From Acidobacteriota bacterium (GTDB lineage: Bacteria > Acidobacteriota > Terriglobia > Bryobacterales > Bryobacteraceae): a DNA stretch of 35,416 nt. Each line of letters starts with the position of its first letter. The first letter of the stretch is position 1. The stretch lies in NCBI GenBank assembly GCA_016213775.1, contig JACQZR010000115.1:1-35416 (forward strand), in the 5' to 3' direction. Positions 14,608-23,903 of the stretch are shown here, piece after piece. The translations under genes and the position numbers were made by a program. The notes under the pieces were generated by a model. The model ran no database searches. It had not been told where the DNA came from and worked only from the letters and a program-made list of their open reading frames with translations.

Positions 14608-15870
14608 TTAAGCGCGTTGGAACCATGCCTCTTTGGGGGCACGATACGACACTGCGAGTTCCGGGGTGGCAACCCGGCCTTTGCGCCGTTTGGATTCGAA
14701 CAGGAAGGCCAGCGCGCCGGTGGTGAGCAAGGTGCGCTCTACCGGATAGACGGGCTTCCCTGTCTGGAACATTTCGTCGACACAGCGTACAAGGCCGTCA
14801 AAGTGCGGCAGCGGACGGCCTGGCGCCGGGAGGCCGAAGAACGTGGACTCGACCGCCGCGGTTGCGCTACGCCGCATGGCAAAGGACCACTCCGCACCGG
14901 AAGGTCCGACGATCAATGCGGCGGCGCGAAGCCCGCTCTTATACTGCAATTGAAACAGCACCGGATTGCGGGACTCTTCTTCCAGCGTCAGCGGTTTCCG
15001 TTTGGGATTGCGCTTCTGGGCCTCGTCGATCAACGGCCGGGCCCACTTGCCCTCGGAGGCAAGCCATTCGAACACCGCGTTGCCTTGCACCCATTCGACG
15101 CCGTCGATTCCGGTCTCGCCACCTGCCCGGCGCTCAATCATGCATTGCAGCGATTCCAGCAAATGGAACCCATAGGCGTCGTGCGGGCCGTAGCCGACGC
15201 AGACAGCCGACTCTATCGGAGTCTCCAGTGGGATCTCCAATAGAGGCGTACGGATAGTCACCGGAATCGACGACCCCGCCATCCACGGGACCTTCAACCG
15301 CTTCGCGCGATCGTAAATGCCCTTGGCTTTCTCCCACGAATAGGAAAGGTGTTTGTCGAAGAAGGTCGGCACCACGCGGCCGGTCTTTTCGTACACGTCC
15401 AGAATCTGGTTGAACAACTCGTAGCGCGGATACATCTTCTGCCCGAGTTCGTTCTCGGGGTATTGTCCGTGCTCGCCGACAAAAACCACAGCATCCACGG
15501 CGAGCTTGTCCGAGCCAAGCGTCATCGCCGCGGCGATAGTGGGGTAGATCTTGAAGCCGAACCTCGCCGATAGATCGCGGCTCATATCCGTAGCCGGCAC
15601 CTGATCGGTATAGAGAGAAACCAGCCGGCTGCGCGACTCGTGGTGAACATTGTTCGCCGAGTAGCCACCGAGAATGCGGCCGAGGACAACGTCGGCGTGG
15701 GAGTAGTGGCGGTATTCGGTTACGATGCCCGCGACACGCTTCTTTCCCGCGGCCGCCTGGATGGCGGGAAGGAGCGTGGCAGCCGAGACGCCGAGGCACG
15801 ACTGGTGGAACAATCGCCGGGACAGGTTACTCGTCGGAGTCTTTGGATTCGATGGGAGGTGGTGGTTCAT
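14608..15870 (-). CDS. Tat-signal protein of unknown function
   Basis: From the ATG at 15870 the protein has 420 residues with a twin-arginine-type leader (LSRRLFHQSCLGVSAATLLPA) and cleavage near AIQAAAG. The mature part begins KKRVAGIVTEYRHYSHADVVLGRILGGY and contains VDAVVFVGEHGQYPENELGQKMYPRYELF, 'FFDKHLSYSWEKAKGIYDRA' and 'VCVGYGPHDAYGFHLLESLQCM'. I know this pattern only as a conserved hypothetical family of acidobacteria and planctomycetes. The first strand resembles a nucleotide-binding oxidoreductase of the Gfo/Idh type, but no clear NAD motif is visible. Conserved His, Asp and Glu residues would suit a hydrolase or lyase. Its start lies 44 bases inside the methyltransferase gene, so they share a transcript. 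Confidence 0.82.
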   Translation of the reverse strand: MNHHLPSNPKTPTSNLSRRLFHQSCLGVSAATLLPAIQAAAGKKRVAGIVTEYRHYSHADVVLGRILGGYSANNVHHESRSRLVSLYTDQVPATDMSRDLSARFGFKIYPTIAAAMTLGSDKLAVDAVVFVGEHGQYPENELGQKMYPRYELFNQILDVYEKTGRVVPTFFDKHLSYSWEKAKGIYDRAKRLKVPWMAGSSIPVTIRTPLLEIPLETPIESAVCVGYGPHDAYGFHLLESLQCMIERRAGGETGIDGVEWVQGNAVFEWLASEGKWARPLIDEAQKRNPKRKPLTLEEESRNPVLFQLQYKSGLRAAALIVGPSGAEWSFAMRRSATAAVESTFFGLPAPGRPLPHFDGLVRCVDEMFQTGKPVYPVERTLLTTGALAFLFESKRRKGRVATPELAVSYRAPKEAWFQRA

Positions 15871-17332
15871 GGCCTTCCAAGAGGATAATCCCACCGGAGA
15901 CTAATTGTCCCAGGGCCGCGGCGAAGGGTCCAGGGTCAGCATCGGGAGCGAGCGCGCCGTCCTTAACCAGCGTCTCGAATATCTGCCGGCCCGTCCGCGT
16001 TCCATCCAGTTGCGGGAGCAGGTAGTTGGCGAGGCCGTCCACATCCCAAGTAAGCGGGAACGGGTGGCTCACTTCCATACGCTGCGCGTGCATGTCCCAT
16101 CCGCCTTCGGCCAGCGTCAGCGACTGGTGCATCCTGGGAGAACCGGCACGCACTCTCTTATTGAGGATGAGATCCGATCCGCCGTTTACGCGCAGTTCCT
16201 CCCATCGCATCAGCCACTCCATGTGCGCGGGACCATTGTGGGCAGTCCGGCGGCGGCGGATTGTGAATGGCGGTCTCGGCTCACGGTGTCTCTGGATGAC
16301 GGTGTAGGCGAACTGGAAGTTCTTAATCTTCATCTCGCGATAGCGCTTGATCAGCTCTTCAATCTGGAGGCCCGTCATATTCCAGCGAATGGCCGAGCGC
16401 ACGGCGGAATGAACCGGGTCAGCGGGGGGAAGTTCGAACACCGCAATGTCGAACTGGTCCTGCTCGGAGCCAAGCCACGCACGCAGGCGCTGCTCGATAG
16501 CGGAATCCACACGTTCGGCGCACATGGCCCGGCAGTAGAACCGTCCGCCTGGAGCGAGGACGCGAGGCAAGCCCTCTACGTGCCGGCGCATAATGGACTC
16601 GCCATCCTCGCCGCCATCGTGAAACAGCCACGTGTGCTTGAGGGTTGGAACGAACGGCGGGTGGGCGGCGATGCGGTCGAATTGCATCCCCTCCACCGAG
16701 CTATAGATGTCGCCGGCCAGCGAGGTGAAATTGGTGAGCGCGTTCAATCTGGCCCCGAAACGGGCAAACTCCGCGGACCGTTCGGCGATGTCGGTGGACC
16801 ATGCGTGACGAGCACAGTATTTCGCCGCAAGCAGGGCTGCCACGCCGGATCCTCCACACGCCTCAAGAAAACGCTCGCATGGATCCGTTGGGAGGAACCC
16901 GACATAACGCCGCGTGTCGCTGGAATCCGGCATCAGAACGATATCGTCCATGAAATCTGACTGAAACCCGGCGACTTCTTTCCAAATGTCGGACAGCACG
17001 TAGATTTCCATGTACGGGCGTATGCGAACGGTGGGATGGCAGGTGGTGCCATCCTGCCGAACGAGGCCGAGATCGAGAAGGACGGTGAGTCCGGTCTGAC
17101 CGAGCACGGTTCGCAAATCCTCAGCCTCGGCATAGCCTGCCTGCAGGAACAGGTGGAACAGCAACGAGAATGGCGGCGGAATGTCAGATGGGGCATCCCA
17201 TGCGGCCGCTGAGTCCGAATCGGTGATGCGCAGTTTGCGCAACTGTTGGCCGGTGAATTGGGAGCGGACGAAGAGTTCCCGGACTTGGGTGAACTGTTCG
17301 TCGGAACCGAAGCGAAACGGGACAGGGGTCAT
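15827..17332 (-). CDS. Class I SAM-dependent methyltransferase (MTS/PrmC-like) with extra N- and C-terminal domains
   Basis: The 501-residue product from ATG 17332 has three parts. An N-terminal helical domain (~1-110, 'SLLFHLFLQAGYAEAEDLRTVLG') resembles the winged-helix-like front domain of actinobacterial 'DUF7059-MTS' proteins. A Rossmann methyltransferase core carries ACGGSGVAALLAA (C159-G163) as motif I and AAHPPFVPT (H224-F227) in place of the NPPY of PrmC/HemK and N6-adenine enzymes. A long C-terminal domain with Trp/Arg-rich strands ends 'GGIILLEGHEPPPPIESKDSDE'. The core family methylates glutamine or amino groups in proteins and nucleic acids; His for Asn in the motif is notable, and the substrate cannot be told. 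The start is 5 bases after the stop of the repeat protein gene, so the two are cotranscribed. Confidence 0.85.
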   Translation of the reverse strand: MTPVPFRFGSDEQFTQVRELFVRSQFTGQQLRKLRITDSDSAAAWDAPSDIPPPFSLLFHLFLQAGYAEAEDLRTVLGQTGLTVLLDLGLVRQDGTTCHPTVRIRPYMEIYVLSDIWKEVAGFQSDFMDDIVLMPDSSDTRRYVGFLPTDPCERFLEACGGSGVAALLAAKYCARHAWSTDIAERSAEFARFGARLNALTNFTSLAGDIYSSVEGMQFDRIAAHPPFVPTLKHTWLFHDGGEDGESIMRRHVEGLPRVLAPGGRFYCRAMCAERVDSAIEQRLRAWLGSEQDQFDIAVFELPPADPVHSAVRSAIRWNMTGLQIEELIKRYREMKIKNFQFAYTVIQRHREPRPPFTIRRRRTAHNGPAHMEWLMRWEELRVNGGSDLILNKRVRAGSPRMHQSLTLAEGGWDMHAQRMEVSHPFPLTWDVDGLANYLLPQLDGTRTGRQIFETLVKDGALAPDADPGPFAAALGQLVSGGIILLEGHEPPPPIESKDSDE

Positions 17333-17337
17333 TTGTT

Positions 17338-19626
17338 TTACTTGCGAAGAAACGTGACGAGCAAGCCGATGACGAGCACCAGTATCAACCCGCCAACCAC
17401 GTACAAGGGCCACTTGGGGGACTGCTTGACGGGAGGGCGCGGCGCTACCATCTGGGGCGCGGGGGCGGCCACGGGTGGCGCTTGTGGATTGGGCATTACC
17501 GGTTGTTGAAACATGCGCGTGTACTCGCTGGGCGCATTCGCCTGAGGCGCCTGCATCGAGGGCTGTACGGCTTGAAAGGACTGCGTTGCTCCTCCGAAGA
17601 GATTGCTTGGGGGACGCGGAGCTTGAGGAGGCGCCGGAGCCTGGGCCGGGCCTCCGCCGAACAACTTCTGATACTCATCCTGCACGGTGGGCTGCGCGGG
17701 GCCGGCATAGGGACGGGGTGGGATGCCGCCGCCTGCCGGACTGAACGCAGGTGGTTGCGCGCCGCTGCTGTAATCGGTGAAGCCGCCTGAGCCGAACGGC
17801 GAGGGGGCCTGTGCCGGGTTGGGCGCTACCATCGGTTTGGCCATCGGCGAAGTGGGTGGAGCGAACGGATTCGCTTCGGCGCCGTAGGATTGTGGTGCAT
17901 TCGCAACCGGCAGCGCCTGTTTGGGCAACGATGGAGTGGCGAAGAGCTGCGTGAACTCGCCAGGCCCTTGCCGCTGGCCCGGCGCTGGAGGCATGGGACC
18001 GGGGGAATCGAGTTTCGTGGTCTTCACCAACGGCATTTCCCCGGCTGGTTGGGCCGGCGAGGCGGCGAACATCTGTGTGAACTCGCCGGGCGCTTTTGGT
18101 GCGGTGGCCGGCGGTGGAGGAGCCGGGGGTTTGCCGGCGGGCGGAATGGGCATCTGGCCCGTCGCGGATGGCGCAGCGGGACTCTGGAACATGGAGGTGA
18201 ACTCGCTGGGCGGCCTCGATGCGGGATCCGCCGGGACTTTCTCCGCGTGCGATGGAGGGGTAGGAGTGGGCGTTTGCCCAGTGACTCCGGGAGCCTGGAA
18301 CATACGGGTGAACTCGCCCACTTCGCCGGCAGGTTGCGGCGCAGGTTTGGCCTCCGGGTGGGGCGGTTTCATCTGGCCGGTGACGCCGGGCGCGGCCGGG
18401 CTCTGAAACATCGCAGTGAATTCGCCAGCCGGAGCCGCCTTCATCTGACCCGTCGCACCGGGAGCCGGGGAGGGGAGGGACTCGCCCGTCACGATGGCCG
18501 GCGTCGCGGTTTTTATCTGACCCGTCGCGCCGGGGGCTGGCGGTGTCTGGAACATCGCAGTAAACTCGCCTGCCGGAGCGGCGGGTGCAGGAGGCGCCGG
18601 CGGAGCTGCCTTCATCTGACCTGTCGACTCGGGGGCCGGCGGTGTCTGGAACATTGCCGTAAACTCGCCCGACGGAGTGGCGGGTGCAGCAGGCGCCGGC
18701 TCAGCGGCCTTCATCTGACCTGTCGGTTCGGGAGCGGGTGGTGTCTGGAACATTGCCGTGAACTCGCCTGCCGGAGCGGCGGGTGCGGCAGGCGCCGGCG
18801 GAGCGGGCTTGATCTGGCCCGTCGGCTCGGGGGCCGGCGGTGTCTGAAACATCGCTGTGAACTCGCCTGCCGGAGTGGGCGGAGCGGCCTTCATCTGACC
18901 CGTCGTCTCGGGAGACGGGGCGGTCTGGAACATCGCCGTGAACTCGCTCGGGGGTGGAGCAGGTTTCAACGACTCAGCGGCGGTTGGAACCGCCTGTTTG
19001 CCGCCGAGGAACAACTTCTCGAATTCGTCCTCAACAGGGGCCGCAACTGGCGGAGGTGGTGCCGGTGGCGGCGACGTTTTCGCCTTGGGCAGGATGACCT
19101 CGGCCGTCGAGAACATCTGGGTGATGTCCGGGGGAGCCATCCCGGGCTTGGGAGGGAGAAGTGGGGCGTTGGGCTCAGGCCGGCGAACGGTAACTTCTTC
19201 CTTCTTGCCGGCAGCGGCAGGTGGCGGGTCAGCGGGACGCTCTCCCGTCTCGACGAACTGAGGCGGTGGTACCTTCCAAACCCCTACTCTCGAAAGTGCC
19301 TCTTTGGCGGGTTTGAGGTTCTGTTCAGTGACGGGCAGGTTCTTCATTCTGACCCATTCTCTGAAATTGGCATACCCGTCGAGAGGCAGTGTGACCACAT
19401 ACGGGGTTCCAAGATGTTCCCCGATCTCCACGACATGCTGACTCTGTGAGGCTGGGATTTTGCGAACCTGTTCCAGCAACTCGAATGGCGGCTCACTCTT
19501 TCCTGGCTGGCCGACAATCATGTGAATCTGGACCACGCGTCCGGAGGCGGACTCGTGCGCCTGAAAGGTTTTTACCCCATCATCCCCAAGGACATCCACC
19601 AATTCGTACTTCTCGTATATGCTCAT
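17338..19626 (-). CDS. Tail-anchored protein: degenerate kinase N-lobe plus 14 EFTxMF-type motifs
   Basis: The ATG at 19626 has a GGAGG site 5 bases upstream. Residues 7-92 look like the N-lobe of a PknB-type kinase. YELVDVLGDDGVKTFQA sits where the glycine loop belongs, and VVQIHMI where VALKVL with the ATP-lysine is expected (here H35). HVVEIGEHLGTPYVVTLPL and GYANFREWV resemble the hinge region. No C-lobe or catalytic loop follows, so it cannot be an active kinase. Residues ~120-735 are Pro/Ala-rich, with 14 copies of a short motif from D167 (DITQMF) through six EFTAMFQ copies (228-408) to EYTRMF at 701. Residues 738-762 form one transmembrane segment ending FLRK, so the bulk faces the cytoplasm. 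It is followed after 5 bases by the methyltransferase gene. The function is unknown; a multivalent membrane-bound docking protein is a reasonable inference. Confidence 0.85.
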   Translation of the reverse strand: MSIYEKYELVDVLGDDGVKTFQAHESASGRVVQIHMIVGQPGKSEPPFELLEQVRKIPASQSQHVVEIGEHLGTPYVVTLPLDGYANFREWVRMKNLPVTEQNLKPAKEALSRVGVWKVPPPQFVETGERPADPPPAAAGKKEEVTVRRPEPNAPLLPPKPGMAPPDITQMFSTAEVILPKAKTSPPPAPPPPVAAPVEDEFEKLFLGGKQAVPTAAESLKPAPPPSEFTAMFQTAPSPETTGQMKAAPPTPAGEFTAMFQTPPAPEPTGQIKPAPPAPAAPAAPAGEFTAMFQTPPAPEPTGQMKAAEPAPAAPATPSGEFTAMFQTPPAPESTGQMKAAPPAPPAPAAPAGEFTAMFQTPPAPGATGQIKTATPAIVTGESLPSPAPGATGQMKAAPAGEFTAMFQSPAAPGVTGQMKPPHPEAKPAPQPAGEVGEFTRMFQAPGVTGQTPTPTPPSHAEKVPADPASRPPSEFTSMFQSPAAPSATGQMPIPPAGKPPAPPPPATAPKAPGEFTQMFAASPAQPAGEMPLVKTTKLDSPGPMPPAPGQRQGPGEFTQLFATPSLPKQALPVANAPQSYGAEANPFAPPTSPMAKPMVAPNPAQAPSPFGSGGFTDYSSGAQPPAFSPAGGGIPPRPYAGPAQPTVQDEYQKLFGGGPAQAPAPPQAPRPPSNLFGGATQSFQAVQPSMQAPQANAPSEYTRMFQQPVMPNPQAPPVAAPAPQMVAPRPPVKQSPKWPLYVVGGLILVLVIGLLVTFLRK
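18403..18945 (-). repeat. In-frame tandem repeats encoding EFTAMFQ units
   Basis: Six near-identical blocks encode EFTAMFQ followed by TPPAPxxTGQ(M/I)K and a Pro/Ala spacer. Successive units are 27, 33, 33, 33 and 48 codons, so the central part is a 99-base tandem repeat. Differences between copies are mostly silent or within spacers, while the EFTAMFQ core is invariant across these six. The pattern looks like unit expansion under selection on the motif, and copy number may vary between strains. Confidence 0.8.
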
Positions 19627-19758: not shown

Positions 19759-21372
19759 CTAAAGCGACAGCAGGTACGACGTCAGGCGTTCCAGGTCCTT
19801 TGGCGCCAGGCGGTAAGGAGGCATGGTGGTGCCAGGGGAGAACTTCTGCGGATCGGCGAAATGGCCTTCCACCCAAGCGCGCTCGCGCCGCTTGGCCAAG
19901 CCGTTCAACGGCGGTCCCAGTTTGGCGCCAACTTCATTCACCTGATGGCAGGCATTGCAGCGATTCTGCTGGTAAACAAGGGCCCCGTCCACAGCGGGTT
20001 GCGGGGCATCACGCAATTCTTTGGCGTTTTGCGTGTTCAGCTTAAGCAAGAACGCCGCCAGTGCGTTCAACTGCGAATCGGCAAGGTGAATCGGAGGCAT
20101 TGAAGTGCCGGGCATCTTCTCCTGCGGATTCTTGAAATGCTCCAACATCCACTTGGCGTCGCGCCTGATCCCGGACTTTGCGAGATCGGGCCCCATCTTC
20201 TTCCCATCCTCGCCAAGCGTGTGACACGCAGAGCAGTTCTCCTTGCGGTAGTAACCGATGCCGGCCAGTTCCTCGGGGGAGAGATGGGCCCACTCGGCCG
20301 GGCCACCGGTTGCAACGCCCTCAACTTCCTTCGGCGTGCCGGAAATAGCAGCGCCTGTCAGCGCCGACCATCCAATGGCCCCCACCAACACCAGGGCCAT
20401 GGCGCCCTTTCGCTGCCCGACGCGCTTCACTCCGCCACGATCAATGAATGGCGCCAGCAGCAACGCGACGATCGCCAGGTTTGGCAGAATCACTGCTCCG
20501 ACCACTTCCAGCGGCCCTTCAAAGAACTTCAACAACTGGAACAGGAACATGAAATACCAGTCCGGCCGTGGAGTGTAACTGGTGTCCGTCGGATCGGCCA
20601 GCCGGCCTAACGGCGCCTCCAGAATCAAGGCCATGGAGAAGAGAACAGTGAAGGCAACGAAAATCGCCACCGTATCCTTGAAGACCTGCGAGGGATAGAA
20701 CTTACCCTTGGGGCCGTTGTCGCCGGGGTCGGGGGCTACGCCATGCTTGCGAACGAGGTAGACGTGGAACGCGATCAACAGAAGTATCGCAACCGGCAGC
20801 AGGAGCGTGTGCATGGAATAGAAACGCGCGAACGTCACTACACCCACGCCACTCTCCGCGCCCATCAGCCGCTGTACGTATTGACCCGCGCCCGGGGCAA
20901 GGCCCGCAATCTGCGTGGTCACGACGGTGCCCCAATAGGCGCGGTTGTCCCAGGGCAACAGGTAGCCCGTCAGCCCGAAAGCCATCGTCACCATCAGGAG
21001 CACGACGCCCACCATCCAGGTGGCTTCGCGCGGCTTCTTATACGCGCCCCAAATGAGCACCTGCACCATGTGCAGCACCACTACTACGATCATCATGCTC
21101 GCACCCCAGTGATGCAGGCCGCGGATGAGCTTCCCACCCGTCAATTCGGTCATGATGAACTTGACACTGTTGTAGGCTTCTCCCGGCGAGGCTGCGTAGT
21201 TAAACGACAGCATCACTCCGGTGAACGCCTGCACGAGAAAACAAAAGAGGGCAACACTGCCCATCACGTTGTGCCAGCCTGCGCTGGCGGGAATGTCCTC
21301 GTAAAGGAATTCGTTGACGAAGGTTTCGAGTCCTGTCCGGGACTCGATGAAATGCCGGATGCGTTTCACCAT
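19759..21372 (-). CDS. Cytochrome b fused to two cytochrome c domains (menaquinol:cytochrome c reductase)
   Basis: This 537-residue fusion begins with a full-length cytochrome b (about residues 1-345, some eight membrane spans). Haem-ligand histidines are H87/H101 and a second pair in SMHTLLLPVAILLLIAFH. Spacing within the pairs is 13 and 14 intervening residues, as in cytochrome b6 rather than mitochondrial cytochrome b. The quinol-site motif is PDWYF instead of PEWY. After one more membrane segment come two periplasmic c-type haem domains, C380-S-A-C-H384 and C472-N-A-C-H476, each with a distal Met (MPGTSMPPIH, SPGTTMPPYR). The protein oxidises quinol and passes electrons through its own haems c to a downstream acceptor. 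It lies 12 bases after the Rieske gene. No separate cytochrome c1 or oxidase gene is nearby. Confidence 0.95.
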   Translation of the reverse strand: MVKRIRHFIESRTGLETFVNEFLYEDIPASAGWHNVMGSVALFCFLVQAFTGVMLSFNYAASPGEAYNSVKFIMTELTGGKLIRGLHHWGASMMIVVVVLHMVQVLIWGAYKKPREATWMVGVVLLMVTMAFGLTGYLLPWDNRAYWGTVVTTQIAGLAPGAGQYVQRLMGAESGVGVVTFARFYSMHTLLLPVAILLLIAFHVYLVRKHGVAPDPGDNGPKGKFYPSQVFKDTVAIFVAFTVLFSMALILEAPLGRLADPTDTSYTPRPDWYFMFLFQLLKFFEGPLEVVGAVILPNLAIVALLLAPFIDRGGVKRVGQRKGAMALVLVGAIGWSALTGAAISGTPKEVEGVATGGPAEWAHLSPEELAGIGYYRKENCSACHTLGEDGKKMGPDLAKSGIRRDAKWMLEHFKNPQEKMPGTSMPPIHLADSQLNALAAFLLKLNTQNAKELRDAPQPAVDGALVYQQNRCNACHQVNEVGAKLGPPLNGLAKRRERAWVEGHFADPQKFSPGTTMPPYRLAPKDLERLTSYLLSL

Positions 21373-21384
21373 GGTGTCCTCCGC

Positions 21385-21888
21385 CTACGCTTCCTTCTTC
21401 TCCACCTGTCCGAGCAGCAGTTTGTTGCCTTCGATCTTTACCAGGTAGCGGTCGAGGGGGCGCGGCGCGGGCCCGTCAATGACCTTACCGTCGAGGTCGA
21501 AGTTGGACGTGTGGCACGGACAGTTGAACTGCTTCTTGCGCTCGTCAAATCGGTAGGCACAGCCAAGGTGAGTACACTGTGGCGCGAACGCCACCACTTC
21601 CGTGTCGGACTTCTTAACTACCCAGGCGGAGGTTTTTTCGCTTGATACCTTCCATCCGTCCACGCGGTTGCGCCGGAAGACAACCTCCTCCGCAACCCCT
21701 GTTTCCAGTTTCGAGAGATCCGCTGCTTCCACCCATTGATCTTCCTTTTTCGACTTGGGTGGAAAGAGCAGATAAACAGCGGCCGGGAGTGACATCGCGA
21801 GACCCATGATGGCTCCCAGACCATATATCACCGCGGTATGAAAGCCCCTGCGGTCCGGCTCCGTACGACTGTTCCCCTGAAAGCTCAT
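21385..21888 (-). CDS. qcrA: Rieske [2Fe-2S] protein of the quinol:cytochrome c reductase
   Basis: This 167-residue protein has a short basic N-terminus with a Tat-like RRGF, one membrane anchor (residues ~16-42), and a Rieske domain with cluster ligands in CTHLGC (C105, H107, and disulphide C110) and CPCHTS (C123, C125 disulphide, H126). The second motif has Thr-Ser where many Rieske proteins have Gly-Ser. It delivers electrons from quinol to the haem c domains encoded by the next gene, 12 bases downstream; the two are an obvious operon. The start at 21888 leaves only four bases between a TATAAT box and the ATG and no ribosome site, so the mRNA may be leaderless. Tat export fits the family, where the folded cluster protein is translocated. 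Confidence 0.94.
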   Translation of the reverse strand: MSFQGNSRTEPDRRGFHTAVIYGLGAIMGLAMSLPAAVYLLFPPKSKKEDQWVEAADLSKLETGVAEEVVFRRNRVDGWKVSSEKTSAWVVKKSDTEVVAFAPQCTHLGCAYRFDERKKQFNCPCHTSNFDLDGKVIDGPAPRPLDRYLVKIEGNKLLLGQVEKKEA

Positions 21889-21948: not shown

Positions 21949-21978
21949 TGGTATACTTTAGGCAGTTTGGATGGAGGG
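21949..21978 (+). promoter_or_regulatory. Extended -10 promoter and ribosome site of the VWA operon
   Basis: TGGTATACT (21949-21957) is an extended -10 element (TGn plus TATACT), which explains the lack of a good -35. GGAGGG (21973-21978) sits 7 bases before the ATG at 21986 and decides that start over the ATG at 21971, which overlaps the site itself. The leader would be only about 20 bases. Confidence 0.6.
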
Positions 21979-21985
21979 ACGGTCG

Positions 21986-22999
21986 ATGCACGCGAGGAAA
22001 ACTTTTCTTCTGTGTTTGACGGTCGCGGCGATCAACTTCGCTGGTGATGAGAAAAAGATCGATCCCAAAGCTCAGCAGACTTCACAAGCTCCGGCGAGAG
22101 TGGCTATCGAGCCGAGGGCCAAACCTGGTACTGAAGTCCCCGAGCGGCGTGGACCTTCGAACATTCGCGTCGACAGCACCCTGGTCTTGATCAACGTGAC
22201 GGTCACGGATCCGATGAACCGGTTCGTCACGGGACTGGACAAGGAGTTTTTTGCGCTCACGGAGGACAACGGGCCTCAAACCATCACTCAGTTTTCCAGC
22301 GAGGATGCTCCTCTATCCGTCGGCCTCGTATTCGACGCCAGCGGTAGCATGGGTTCTAAACTTCACAAATCGCGACAGGCGGCCTCACAGTTCTTCAAGA
22401 CTGCGAATCCGGAAGACGAGTTCTTCCTGGTGCAGTTCAACGACCGGGCGGAGTTAATCGTTCCGTTCACTCACAACAGTGAGGAAATCCAGAACCGGCT
22501 GACGTTCACTCAGGCCAAGGGGAAGACGGCGTTGCTCGATGCCATCTACCTCGCTATTCACACGATGAAGAAGGCGCGCAATCCGCGCAAAGCGATCCTC
22601 GTACTTTCCGACGGCGGCGACAACAGTTCCCGCTACACTGAGAGCGAGATTCGCAACCTGGTGGCCGAAGCGGACGTCCAGGTATATGCGATGGGAATTT
22701 TCGAGCCGGTCTCGTCGCGAGGGCGTACCGCGGAAGAACTGTCTGGACCCGGGTTGTTGTCGGATATCGCGGAGAAGACCGGCGGCCGGCATTTCCCGGT
22801 GGAGAATCTGAACGAATTGCCGGACGTTGCGGCGAAGATCGGTGTCGAACTGCGCAATCAATATGTATTGGGCTACTCCCCCACCAATCAGAACCGGGAC
22901 GGGAAATATAGGAAGGTAAGAGTCAAAGTGAAGCAGCCGCGGGGCTTCCCGCAACTGCGTGCTTTTTGGCGCACGGGTTATTATGCCCCTTCGCAATAG
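21986..22999 (+). CDS. VWFA-related domain secreted protein (first of pair)
   Basis: This 337-residue product has a hydrophobic N-terminus (MHARKTFLLCLTVAAINFAG), consistent with export, and a ~50-residue linker rich in Lys, Pro and Ala. It then follows the acidobacterial VWFA-related layout. 'VRVDSTLVLINVTVTD'-like strands lead into LTEDNGPQTITQF, the MIDAS motif D117-A-S-G-S (VFDASGSMG), a Thr in KGKTALLDAI and LSDGGDNSS. It ends with the family-typical YVLGYSPTNQNRDGKYRKVRV. The metal site looks complete, so it probably binds a divalent ion and a protein ligand outside the cytoplasm. The start is fixed by the GGAGGG site. The next gene starts 17 bases before its stop and encodes a paralogue. 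The ligand is unknown. Confidence 0.9.
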   Translation: MHARKTFLLCLTVAAINFAGDEKKIDPKAQQTSQAPARVAIEPRAKPGTEVPERRGPSNIRVDSTLVLINVTVTDPMNRFVTGLDKEFFALTEDNGPQTITQFSSEDAPLSVGLVFDASGSMGSKLHKSRQAASQFFKTANPEDEFFLVQFNDRAELIVPFTHNSEEIQNRLTFTQAKGKTALLDAIYLAIHTMKKARNPRKAILVLSDGGDNSSRYTESEIRNLVAEADVQVYAMGIFEPVSSRGRTAEELSGPGLLSDIAEKTGGRHFPVENLNELPDVAAKIGVELRNQYVLGYSPTNQNRDGKYRKVRVKVKQPRGFPQLRAFWRTGYYAPSQ

Positions 23000-23903
23000 T
23001 ATCCTCATTCTGCCCTTGCTGGCGTGGCTGGGAATCGCTCAGGACGCCACGTTTCGATCGGACACCAGCCTGGTGGTGTTGCACGCCAGTGTAATGGACA
23101 AGAGCGGGAAGCTGCTGACGAGCCTCCCCAAGGATTCGTTTCGCGTTTTTGAGAACAACGTCGAACAGACGATCACTCGATTTCTGCGCGAGGATATTCC
23201 AGTGTCGATGGGCCTTGTCATCGACAACTCCGGAAGCATGAAAGACAAGCGCCAGAAGGTGGAAGCGGCCGCGCTGGACCTCGTTAAAGCCTCCAACAAG
23301 AAGGACGAGGTGTTCATCGTCAACTTCAATGACGAGGCGTATCTCGACGTCCCGTTTACCAACGATATTAAAAAGATGGAAGAAGGATTGACGCAGATCA
23401 ATTCCCGCGGCGGCACGGCTATGCGGGATGCGATCAGCATGTCCATCGATGAGGTGAAGGAGCGCGGCAAGCGCGACAAGAAAGTGCTGCTTGTGGTTAC
23501 CGACGGGAATGACAACACGAGCCTCGTCACTCTGGAGAAGCTTCTCGAAAAAGCGCACCGCAGCGAGGTGCTCATCTACTGTATTGGCCTGCTGAACGAA
23601 GAAGAACGCCGTGAGGCGCTTCGCGCCAAGCGCTCGCTGGAGGCACTGGCGAAGGCCTCTGGTGGACTCTCGTTCTACCCCAAGGAGTTGACAGAGGTTC
23701 ACAAGATCGCGCAGGACGTCGCCTACGAAATCCGCAACCAGTTCATGATCGCCTACTCACCCACGAACACGGCGCAGGACGGAACGTTCCGTCAGATCAA
23801 AGTCACGGTAAAGGGATCCGGAAGCCCGGCGGTCCGAACCCGCAGTGGATATTACGCCAAAGCTCCGGCCGCGCCGAAGACCGGATCGTCTCTACGCGAT
23901 TAG
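22983..23903 (+). CDS. VWFA-related domain secreted protein (second of pair)
   Basis: The ATG at 22983 gives 306 residues, with a signal peptide (MPLRNSILILPLLAWLGIAQ) that supports this choice over an ATG at 22959. The fold mirrors the upstream paralogue: TSLVVLHASVMDKSGKLLTSL, then 'FRVFENNVEQTITRF', MIDAS D81-N-S-G-S, RGGTAMRDAIS with the metal-site Thr, and VVTDGNDNTS. It ends with FMIAYSPTNTAQDGTFRQIKV. The two proteins are clearly diverged duplicates. The overlap with the first gene and absence of a ribosome site indicate translational coupling. The mature C-terminus (AKAPAAPKTGSSLRD) is short and polar. Pairs of such genes are common in acidobacteria, and no function is established to my knowledge. 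Confidence 0.9.
   Translation: MPLRNSILILPLLAWLGIAQDATFRSDTSLVVLHASVMDKSGKLLTSLPKDSFRVFENNVEQTITRFLREDIPVSMGLVIDNSGSMKDKRQKVEAAALDLVKASNKKDEVFIVNFNDEAYLDVPFTNDIKKMEEGLTQINSRGGTAMRDAISMSIDEVKERGKRDKKVLLVVTDGNDNTSLVTLEKLLEKAHRSEVLIYCIGLLNEEERREALRAKRSLEALAKASGGLSFYPKELTEVHKIAQDVAYEIRNQFMIAYSPTNTAQDGTFRQIKVTVKGSGSPAVRTRSGYYAKAPAAPKTGSSLRD

Follow-up and report, generated by a model that had tools for sequence, protein, structure and literature searches.

Introduction

The closest described counterparts of the protein considered here are PpkA and Fha of the type VI secretion system (T6SS): a membrane-anchored, kinase-type protein and a scaffold that act at TssL/TssM, are linked to tss genes, and bind in a manner switched by threonine phosphorylation (as set out in the sections of PMC12607579 and PMC3953482 drawn on here). 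In Acidovorax citrulli, condensates of PpkA and Fha draw in T6SS subunits (PMC12607579), and in Agrobacterium tumefaciens, Fha binds a PpkA-dependent phosphothreonine on TssL (PMC3953482). Here, we describe GEFT, a protein of 762 amino acids (aa) whose gene lies on the minus strand (19626..17338) of a 35,416-nucleotide stretch of DNA from an Acidobacteriota bacterium of the family Bryobacteraceae (GenBank assembly GCA_016213775.1, contig JACQZR010000115.1, positions 1 to 35,416; hereafter, the window). GEFT is a conserved, T6SS-linked protein with a half-pseudokinase head.

GEFT differs from both of the above proteins: from PpkA in that it has no C-lobe and no ATP-site residues, and so is no kinase, and from Fha in that it has a long repeat arm and no FHA domain. 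A further point of comparison is EssB/YukC, a transmembrane pseudokinase in which a membrane-anchored, dead kinase domain likewise has a structural, recruiting role within a secretion machine (PMC12599244, in the sections used). EssB/YukC differs from GEFT in belonging to the type VIIb secretion system (T7SSb) of Firmicutes, and in that its glycine loop is described as degraded and its activation loop as shortened; the latter implies that, unlike in GEFT, a C-lobe is present. No repeat arm is mentioned for EssB/YukC in those sections. The same review covers the bacterial pseudokinase families ActPs1-3, GLW, CP1, DYD, and DLHK, which, as far as its consulted sections describe them, resemble GEFT in their degraded ATP site and, often, in a membrane helix behind the domain; several differ in that C-lobe elements (activation loop, HRD) are described. 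Its main text contains neither 'Acidobacteri' nor 'truncated'.

Literature searches on T6SSs of Acidobacteria/Solibacter, and on TssK together with kinases, returned nothing on GEFT as judged by title and start of abstract; judged in the same way, GEFT is absent from the matches listed for type VI secretion and pseudokinases. The motif string EFTRMF was not found in the literature searched, and nothing was found on T6SS gene clusters with formylglycine and a threonine kinase. Multivalent linkers such as EPYC1 and CsoS2 likewise carry a repeated short motif along a disordered region, by which a partner can be gathered; GEFT differs from these in its membrane anchor, its pseudokinase head, and its place in a secretion locus.

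Results

GEFT combines a half-kinase head, a repeat arm, and a membrane anchor

Comparison of GEFT with Pfam and NCBIfam gave no useful match, and Pfam recognized neither a kinase nor an FHA domain. Nevertheless, the N-terminal domain has a Hanks-type (PknB-like) kinase N-lobe fold. An AlphaFold model of residues 1-101, built on a 49-sequence alignment, runs β1-β2-β3-αC-β4-β5-αD (mean predicted local distance difference test score, pLDDT, 87), and the best 50 matches listed in each structure search of this domain are kinases or kinase domains; the sole Foldseek match with E < 0.001, among the matches listed, is Stk1 of Staphylococcus aureus (7.7e-4). While the single GEFT sequence matched no kinase in the PDB, the 49-sequence profile finds MARK kinases there (MARK2, E 1.5e-4, positions 6-88), and hhalign pairs it with a set of 25 kinase N-lobes drawn from loci of the same genomes (probability 97.1, pairwise E 5.8e-11).

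The catalytic residues of the N-lobe have been lost. The VAVK lysine aligns with His35 (His in 47 of the 49 aligned sequences), the αC glutamate is retained in two (31 have Lys/Arg), and the three glycine-loop glycines are retained in 2, 5, and 10, respectively. No C-lobe with HRD/DFG follows; instead, a Pro/Ala arm begins after about residue 100. Given the loss of catalytic residues, the head is a dead half kinase, and most likely a binding surface. In the sections of PMC12599244 used here, the MviN pseudokinase and some bacterial kinases are described as pairing back-to-back, with N-lobe interface constraints in MviN's family; the back-to-back dimer mode is also described in PMC6333020, again in the part consulted.

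The same N-lobe domain was seen in two other contexts: it heads a protein that continues into a full kinase (locus L091, 7318-9183), and it heads a long, motif-less protein (locus L103, 3784-6789). It is therefore a mobile module. An RVGxWKxP element is kept in seven aligned proteins of the genus, and is found near the start of three relatives that lack the N-lobe. It is not a universal feature, with the pattern present in 17 of 50 proteins.

The arm carries 14 [DE][FYI]xx[ML]F motifs; Thr is present in 12, and 10 fit the strict form [DE][FY]TxMF. Shuffling (2,000 shuffles) gave means of 0.0155 for the loose form, 0.003 for [DES][FYI]Tx[ML]F, and 0 for the strict form. The loose motif is found three more times in the six-frame translation of the window, one of these on the plus strand opposite the GEFT gene. 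A DNA pattern for E[F/Y]TxMF has 11 sites in the 10.96-Mb genome, 10 of which lie inside the GEFT gene (the eleventh is in a frame that looks like a TonB-dependent receptor). EFTAMF occurs six times, each time in a different DNA version; the 40 pairwise differences among these are all synonymous, indicating that the peptide has been kept rather than merely freshly copied.

Motif statistics were drawn from 48 proteins picked for at least three loose matches, giving 371 instances (1 to 16 per protein). The pattern fixed positions beforehand, and the strength of the result hence lies in the ranking and in the retention of Thr, among seven allowed residues, at position 0 (332 of 371), rather than in percentages. 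Position -2 is E in 292 instances and D in 35, position -1 is F in 316 and Y in 33, and position +3 is F in 352.

In a full-length AlphaFold model (seven sequences), most of the chain between about residues 102 and 730 is disordered, arm pLDDT is mostly under 50, and a confident helix spans residues 739-761. A C-terminal membrane helix is present in 41 of 50 collected proteins; the other nine are, by their coordinates, truncated at a contig end or, in L072, at an N run.

A preliminary description of the gene, made from the window alone, had proposed half a kinase without a C-lobe, its ATP lysine replaced by His, followed by a repeated short motif and one C-terminal membrane span. Each of these proposals is borne out: the kinase relation and missing C-lobe by AlphaFold, the structure searches, and profile comparison, and the others by the relatives, in which His, motifs, and anchor are kept. 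Its count of 14 EFTxMF motifs stands for the loose form, with the Thr-bearing and strict forms being fewer.

GEFT is a T6SS locus protein in relatives

Stretches of up to 20 kb were fetched around 39 N-lobe matches and one kinase match of the window's own genome. The open reading frames (ORFs) of these 40 stretches and of the window were clustered, giving 41 loci, of which 32 contain TssK, 29 TssL, 27 TssM, and 21 kinases. Pfam recognized TssK, DotU/TssL, IcmF/TssM, VipB, Hcp, Pkinase, and Pkinase plus FGE-sulfatase among the representatives. Typically, GEFT stands head to head with tssK, followed by tssL and tssM; many loci also contain (i) a kinase with a C-terminal membrane helix, and (ii) a kinase with an FGE-sulfatase domain. 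In genome G104, a single 35-kb stretch holds GEFT together with TssK, TssL, TssM, TssB, TssC, and Hcp (by profiles), and TssA, gp25-type, TssF, Clp-type ATPase, and VgrG-type proteins (by Pfam).

The linkage extends across the order. At least 60 of 84 N-lobe profile matches (E<=1e-7) have tssK within 1.5 kb, 57 of them divergently, with a median gap of 205 bp; seven of the 84 matches belong to full kinases (four observed directly, three judged by match range). Of 150 genomes of the order, 70 have the N-lobe protein, 83 have tssK, 66 have both, and 63 have neither (seven weak tssK matches dropped; Fisher p 4e-21, in a test that ignores relatedness). The N-lobe protein occurs without tssK in G037, G046, G051, and G093, with motif copies seen only in G051. 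Across 297 genomes of the phylum, a clear N-lobe protein outside the order was found in two (G427 and G267, one family), both in T6SS loci; the remaining outside-order matches, among the matches listed, are at 2.8e-10 or weaker, and the one fetched (G399) is a kinase. GEFT is thus a T6SS locus protein in relatives, and its link to the T6SS is very probable.

Several loci show further peculiarities. In L081, L094, and L150, the GEFT gene is flanked by tssK genes on both sides, and two or more TssK matches were found in 73 of the 90 genomes that have any (these may include fragments). A single protein in L185 (7058-8431) has both T6SS_VipA and VipB Pfam matches.

TssM and GEFT share a short element

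TssM contains one GATRMF-type element, just ahead of a conserved VPQW stretch. [GS]ATRMF is found in seven of the eight genus loci in which TssM was seen, including that of the window's own genome; the eighth has GATSLF. A wider pattern, [GSAN]ATx[MIVLFSA]F—picked after viewing both families, whose homologues are not independent—occurs in 32 of 43 TssM proteins (34 copies vs 2.6 expected) and 27 of 50 GEFT proteins (27 copies vs 2.35 expected), with 25 of the 27 GEFT copies lying 78-151 residues from the C-terminus. Elsewhere, it was found in 2 of 66 TssK proteins, 1 of 23 methyltransferases, none of the TssL, TssB, TssC, Hcp, or kinase proteins, and 634 unrelated ORFs contain 8 copies (6.0 expected). 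The TssM element and the arm motif chiefly share the Thr and the Phe three places on. We read the element as a putative sign of one common partner bound by TssM and GEFT.

The arm and anchor occur without the half kinase

Three relatives consist of arm and anchor with no N-lobe: those of G075 and G142 stand head to head with tssK, while in G130 a methyltransferase gene lies between the relative and the nearby tssK. The N-lobe profile found nothing in these three genomes, even with filters off. G074 has a divergent N-lobe (33 bits), and a relative in G086 was read in part. A motif-DNA search of the 17 tssK genomes without an N-lobe match found matches in groups of 2-6, no further than about 2.5 kb from tssK, in G074, G075, G086, and G130; in 17 genomes without a strong tssK match, three have a single match and none has more. 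Since the N-lobe-less relatives keep arm and anchor, these two parts look like the core of the protein, and the half kinase looks like an addition kept by most lineages.

The window's genome and the neighbours of GEFT

The closest named relatives of the window's genome are metagenome genomes of Bryobacterales/Bryobacteraceae. In this genome, tssK-tssL-tssM-kinase-kinase lie on contig C6 and the GEFT gene on C13. Both C6 kinases carry VAVK, HRD, and DFG, and one (380 aa) is a complete kinase domain followed by a membrane helix. Contig C103 holds a second tssK with a methyltransferase, and C307 a VipB/TssC match, Hcp and TssA (profiles), and TssF and TssG (Pfam). Neither the C6 nor the C13 site is at a contig end, and so the separation of GEFT looks like a real relocation; misassembly is a possible alternative. 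The GEFT gene now sits behind a cytochrome bc operon, beginning 132 bp behind cytochrome b. Coordinates are given in Table 1.

The methyltransferase family of the downstream neighbour is present in 13 of the 41 loci, and again beside the second tssK of the own genome; the enzyme may modify a T6SS part. Members other than that of the window lie at L116 10351, and at L183 10748 and 12313. The preliminary description had GEFT cotranscribed with the methyltransferase and a Tat-signal protein, as the possible membrane hub of an undescribed system. Close spacing and the recurrence of the pair agree with the former; the tie to the Tat-type protein is doubtful given its rarity among the loci (Table 1), and the system, in relatives, is the T6SS.

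Two adjacent, VWA-type-looking genes (by eye; 21971-22999 and 22959-23903) are divergent from the Rieske gene of the window. Elsewhere in the own genome, a 1495-aa frame (L117 8622-13109; C136:34621-39108) joins C-terminal parts of TssK and TssM, and is possibly a natural fusion.

Table 1. Features of the GEFT gene and its neighbours in the window.
Feature	Position	Strand	Remarks
GEFT gene, whole	17338..19626	-	762 aa; orthologues known
N-lobe-only pseudokinase domain	19330..19626	-	aa 1-99; His35 at ATP-lysine place
RVGxWKxP element	19267..19290	-	aa 113-120; right behind N-lobe
Pro/Ala-rich disordered arm	17422..19251	-	aa 126-735 (610 residues); P 24%, A 18%
Motif 1 DITQMF	19111..19128	-
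Motif 2 EFEKLF	19009..19026	-	without Thr
Motif 3 EFTAMF	18928..18945	-
Motif 4 EFTAMF	18847..18864	-
Motif 5 EFTAMF	18748..18765	-
Motif 6 EFTAMF	18649..18666	-
Motif 7 EFTAMF	18550..18567	-
Motif 8 EFTAMF	18406..18423	-
Motif 9 EFTRMF	18298..18315	-
Motif 10 EFTSMF	18187..18204	-
Motif 11 EFTQMF	18067..18084	-
Motif 12 EFTQLF	17941..17958	-
Motif 13 EYQKLF	17659..17676	-	without Thr; overlaps short low-confidence predicted helix, aa 648-656
GGATQSF element	17575..17595	-	type also in TssM
Motif 14 EYTRMF	17509..17526	-	last before anchor; overlaps low-confidence predicted helix, aa 701-704
C-terminal membrane helix	17350..17418	-	about aa 737-759 (hydropathy); AlphaFold helix 739-761
Methyltransferase, MTS domain	15827..17332	-	ATG 5 bp past GEFT stop; PqqD match in one relative
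Protein with Tat-like start (by eye)	14608..15894	-	no Pfam match; family in 5 of 41 clustered loci
Cytochrome b / c protein	19759..21372	-	upstream neighbour; clustered with no ORF of other mapped loci
Rieske	21385-21888		beyond cytochrome b / c gene

Discussion

The comparisons above tilt towards a reading in which GEFT would be a membrane-anchored, multivalent T6SS assembly scaffold, a 'pseudo-PpkA/Fha'. GEFT would be a tail-anchored, inner-membrane protein of T6SSs in Bryobacteraceae and some other Acidobacteriota, with its arm probably facing the cytosol, because no N-terminal signal sequence is seen by eye and the anchor is at the very end. The TxMF-type repeats, together with the single TssM element, would concentrate a shared partner in many copies at the membrane complex, and this clustering would let a baseplate nucleate there. 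The N-lobe would rest on one of the linked kinases via the surface that bacterial kinases use for pairing, and the linked kinases may phosphorylate the motif Thr, tuning binding. The role would be like that of the PpkA/Fha condensates of other T6SSs, with multivalency built into one dead half kinase.

A number of observations weigh against the scaffold reading or parts of it. With respect to the T6SS link, no tss gene is among the clustered ORFs of the window, 17 of the 77 non-kinase profile matches are not near tssK (among the matches listed), 17 tssK genomes have no N-lobe match at E<=1e-7, and G051 (97% complete) shows no TssK or VipB match, although its N-lobe protein carries motif copies and an anchor; the Fisher test's disregard for relatedness belongs here too. 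With respect to the mechanism, two of the 14 motifs in the window protein, and 39 of 371 overall, are without Thr; the shared-element pattern was chosen with both families in view, and the cytoplasmic place of the arm and of the TssM stretch with this element is a prediction; finally, the N-lobe is missing in three tssK-linked relatives, meaning that kinase docking is not essential everywhere.

Phosphorylation of the motif Thr is possible, with the balance somewhat on the doubtful side. Both the acidic residue ahead of the Thr and the bulky hydrophobic one at +3 would fit the preferences of bacterial kinases and of FHA readers; a literature search on kinase-site preferences gave no result. The FHA reader suggested in the preliminary description has lost ground: one FHA gene was recognized in the fetched loci, by a search that used a single query domain, whose only match was itself, and a regular expression, so that FHA domains may have been missed there, and the Pfam FHA matches of four genomes (8, 9, 7, and 4) are on other contigs or far from T6SS genes. 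In these searches, an FHA reader beside the locus did not emerge as a general feature. The one gene, in L153 (15809-17290), comes immediately after tssM, and its product combines an FHA domain with a lytic transglycosylase. The TssL phosphothreonine peptide of A. tumefaciens, as given in the section of PMC3953482 used here, is unlike TxMF, and therefore lends the motif no direct support.

The strongest alternative, which we consider unlikely but serious, is that GEFT is a phosphorylation-free, constitutive tether: each motif would be a short amphipathic helix docking into a hydrophobic groove of a T6SS protein, with Thr, Glu, Asp, or Ser at the variable position merely good helix-start residues. 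The 39 non-Thr copies (E 12, D 8, S 8, A 7, Q 3, K 1) agree with this, as do the scarcity of FHA genes near T6SS genes and the short, low-confidence helices that AlphaFold places on the last two motifs, though it places none on the other 12. The retention of Thr and its replacement mostly by E/D/S (28 of 39) fit phospho-reading and a helix-start preference alike. What speaks for a switch over a tether is that intact Ser/Thr kinases are linked in many relatives, and that Thr and the Phe three places on are chiefly what the TssM element and the arm motif share. If phosphorylation is indeed at work, a whole branch of T6SSs might use a threonine switch with no FHA reader beside it, the kinase fragment having become a membrane-anchored counter with up to 16 near-identical sites, matched by the one TssM site, whose occupancy sets firing; we rate this as rather improbable.

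GEFT might alternatively act as a brake, sequestering the T6SS kinases, either as a substrate sponge or as a dominant-negative partner, until release. The dead N-lobe with changed ATP-site charges (Lys to His, and αC Glu to Lys/Arg) and the many near-identical candidate acceptor sites would suit such a role, but the three N-lobe-less relatives retain arm, anchor, and place near tssK, and the related element in a structural subunit, TssM, suggests a common assembly partner and not a decoy; a brake is quite improbable. Least probable of all is a general membrane hub with no secretion tie, for which tssK adjacency would be an inherited neighbourhood and which would here serve the cytochrome bc operon: the 132-bp spacing behind cytochrome b, the 24 of 84 matches (7 kinases included) not within 1.5 kb of tssK among the matches listed, and G051 favour it, against which stand tssK in 66 of the 70 genomes with the N-lobe protein and the motif-DNA groups near tssK in 4 of 17 N-lobe-less tssK genomes (single matches only, in 3 of 17, where tssK is lacking).

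Judged from the literature searches, the T6SSs of Acidobacteriota look little studied. GEFT offers a countable motif, and is relevant to the choice of T6SS assembly sites on the inner membrane. If true, the membrane-anchored counter would be a new kind of T6SS trigger, built from a half pseudokinase. If the scaffold reading is true, half a kinase has been co-opted to head a multivalent scaffold for secretion, and GEFT would be the T6SS counterpart of EssB/YukC in the T7SSb.

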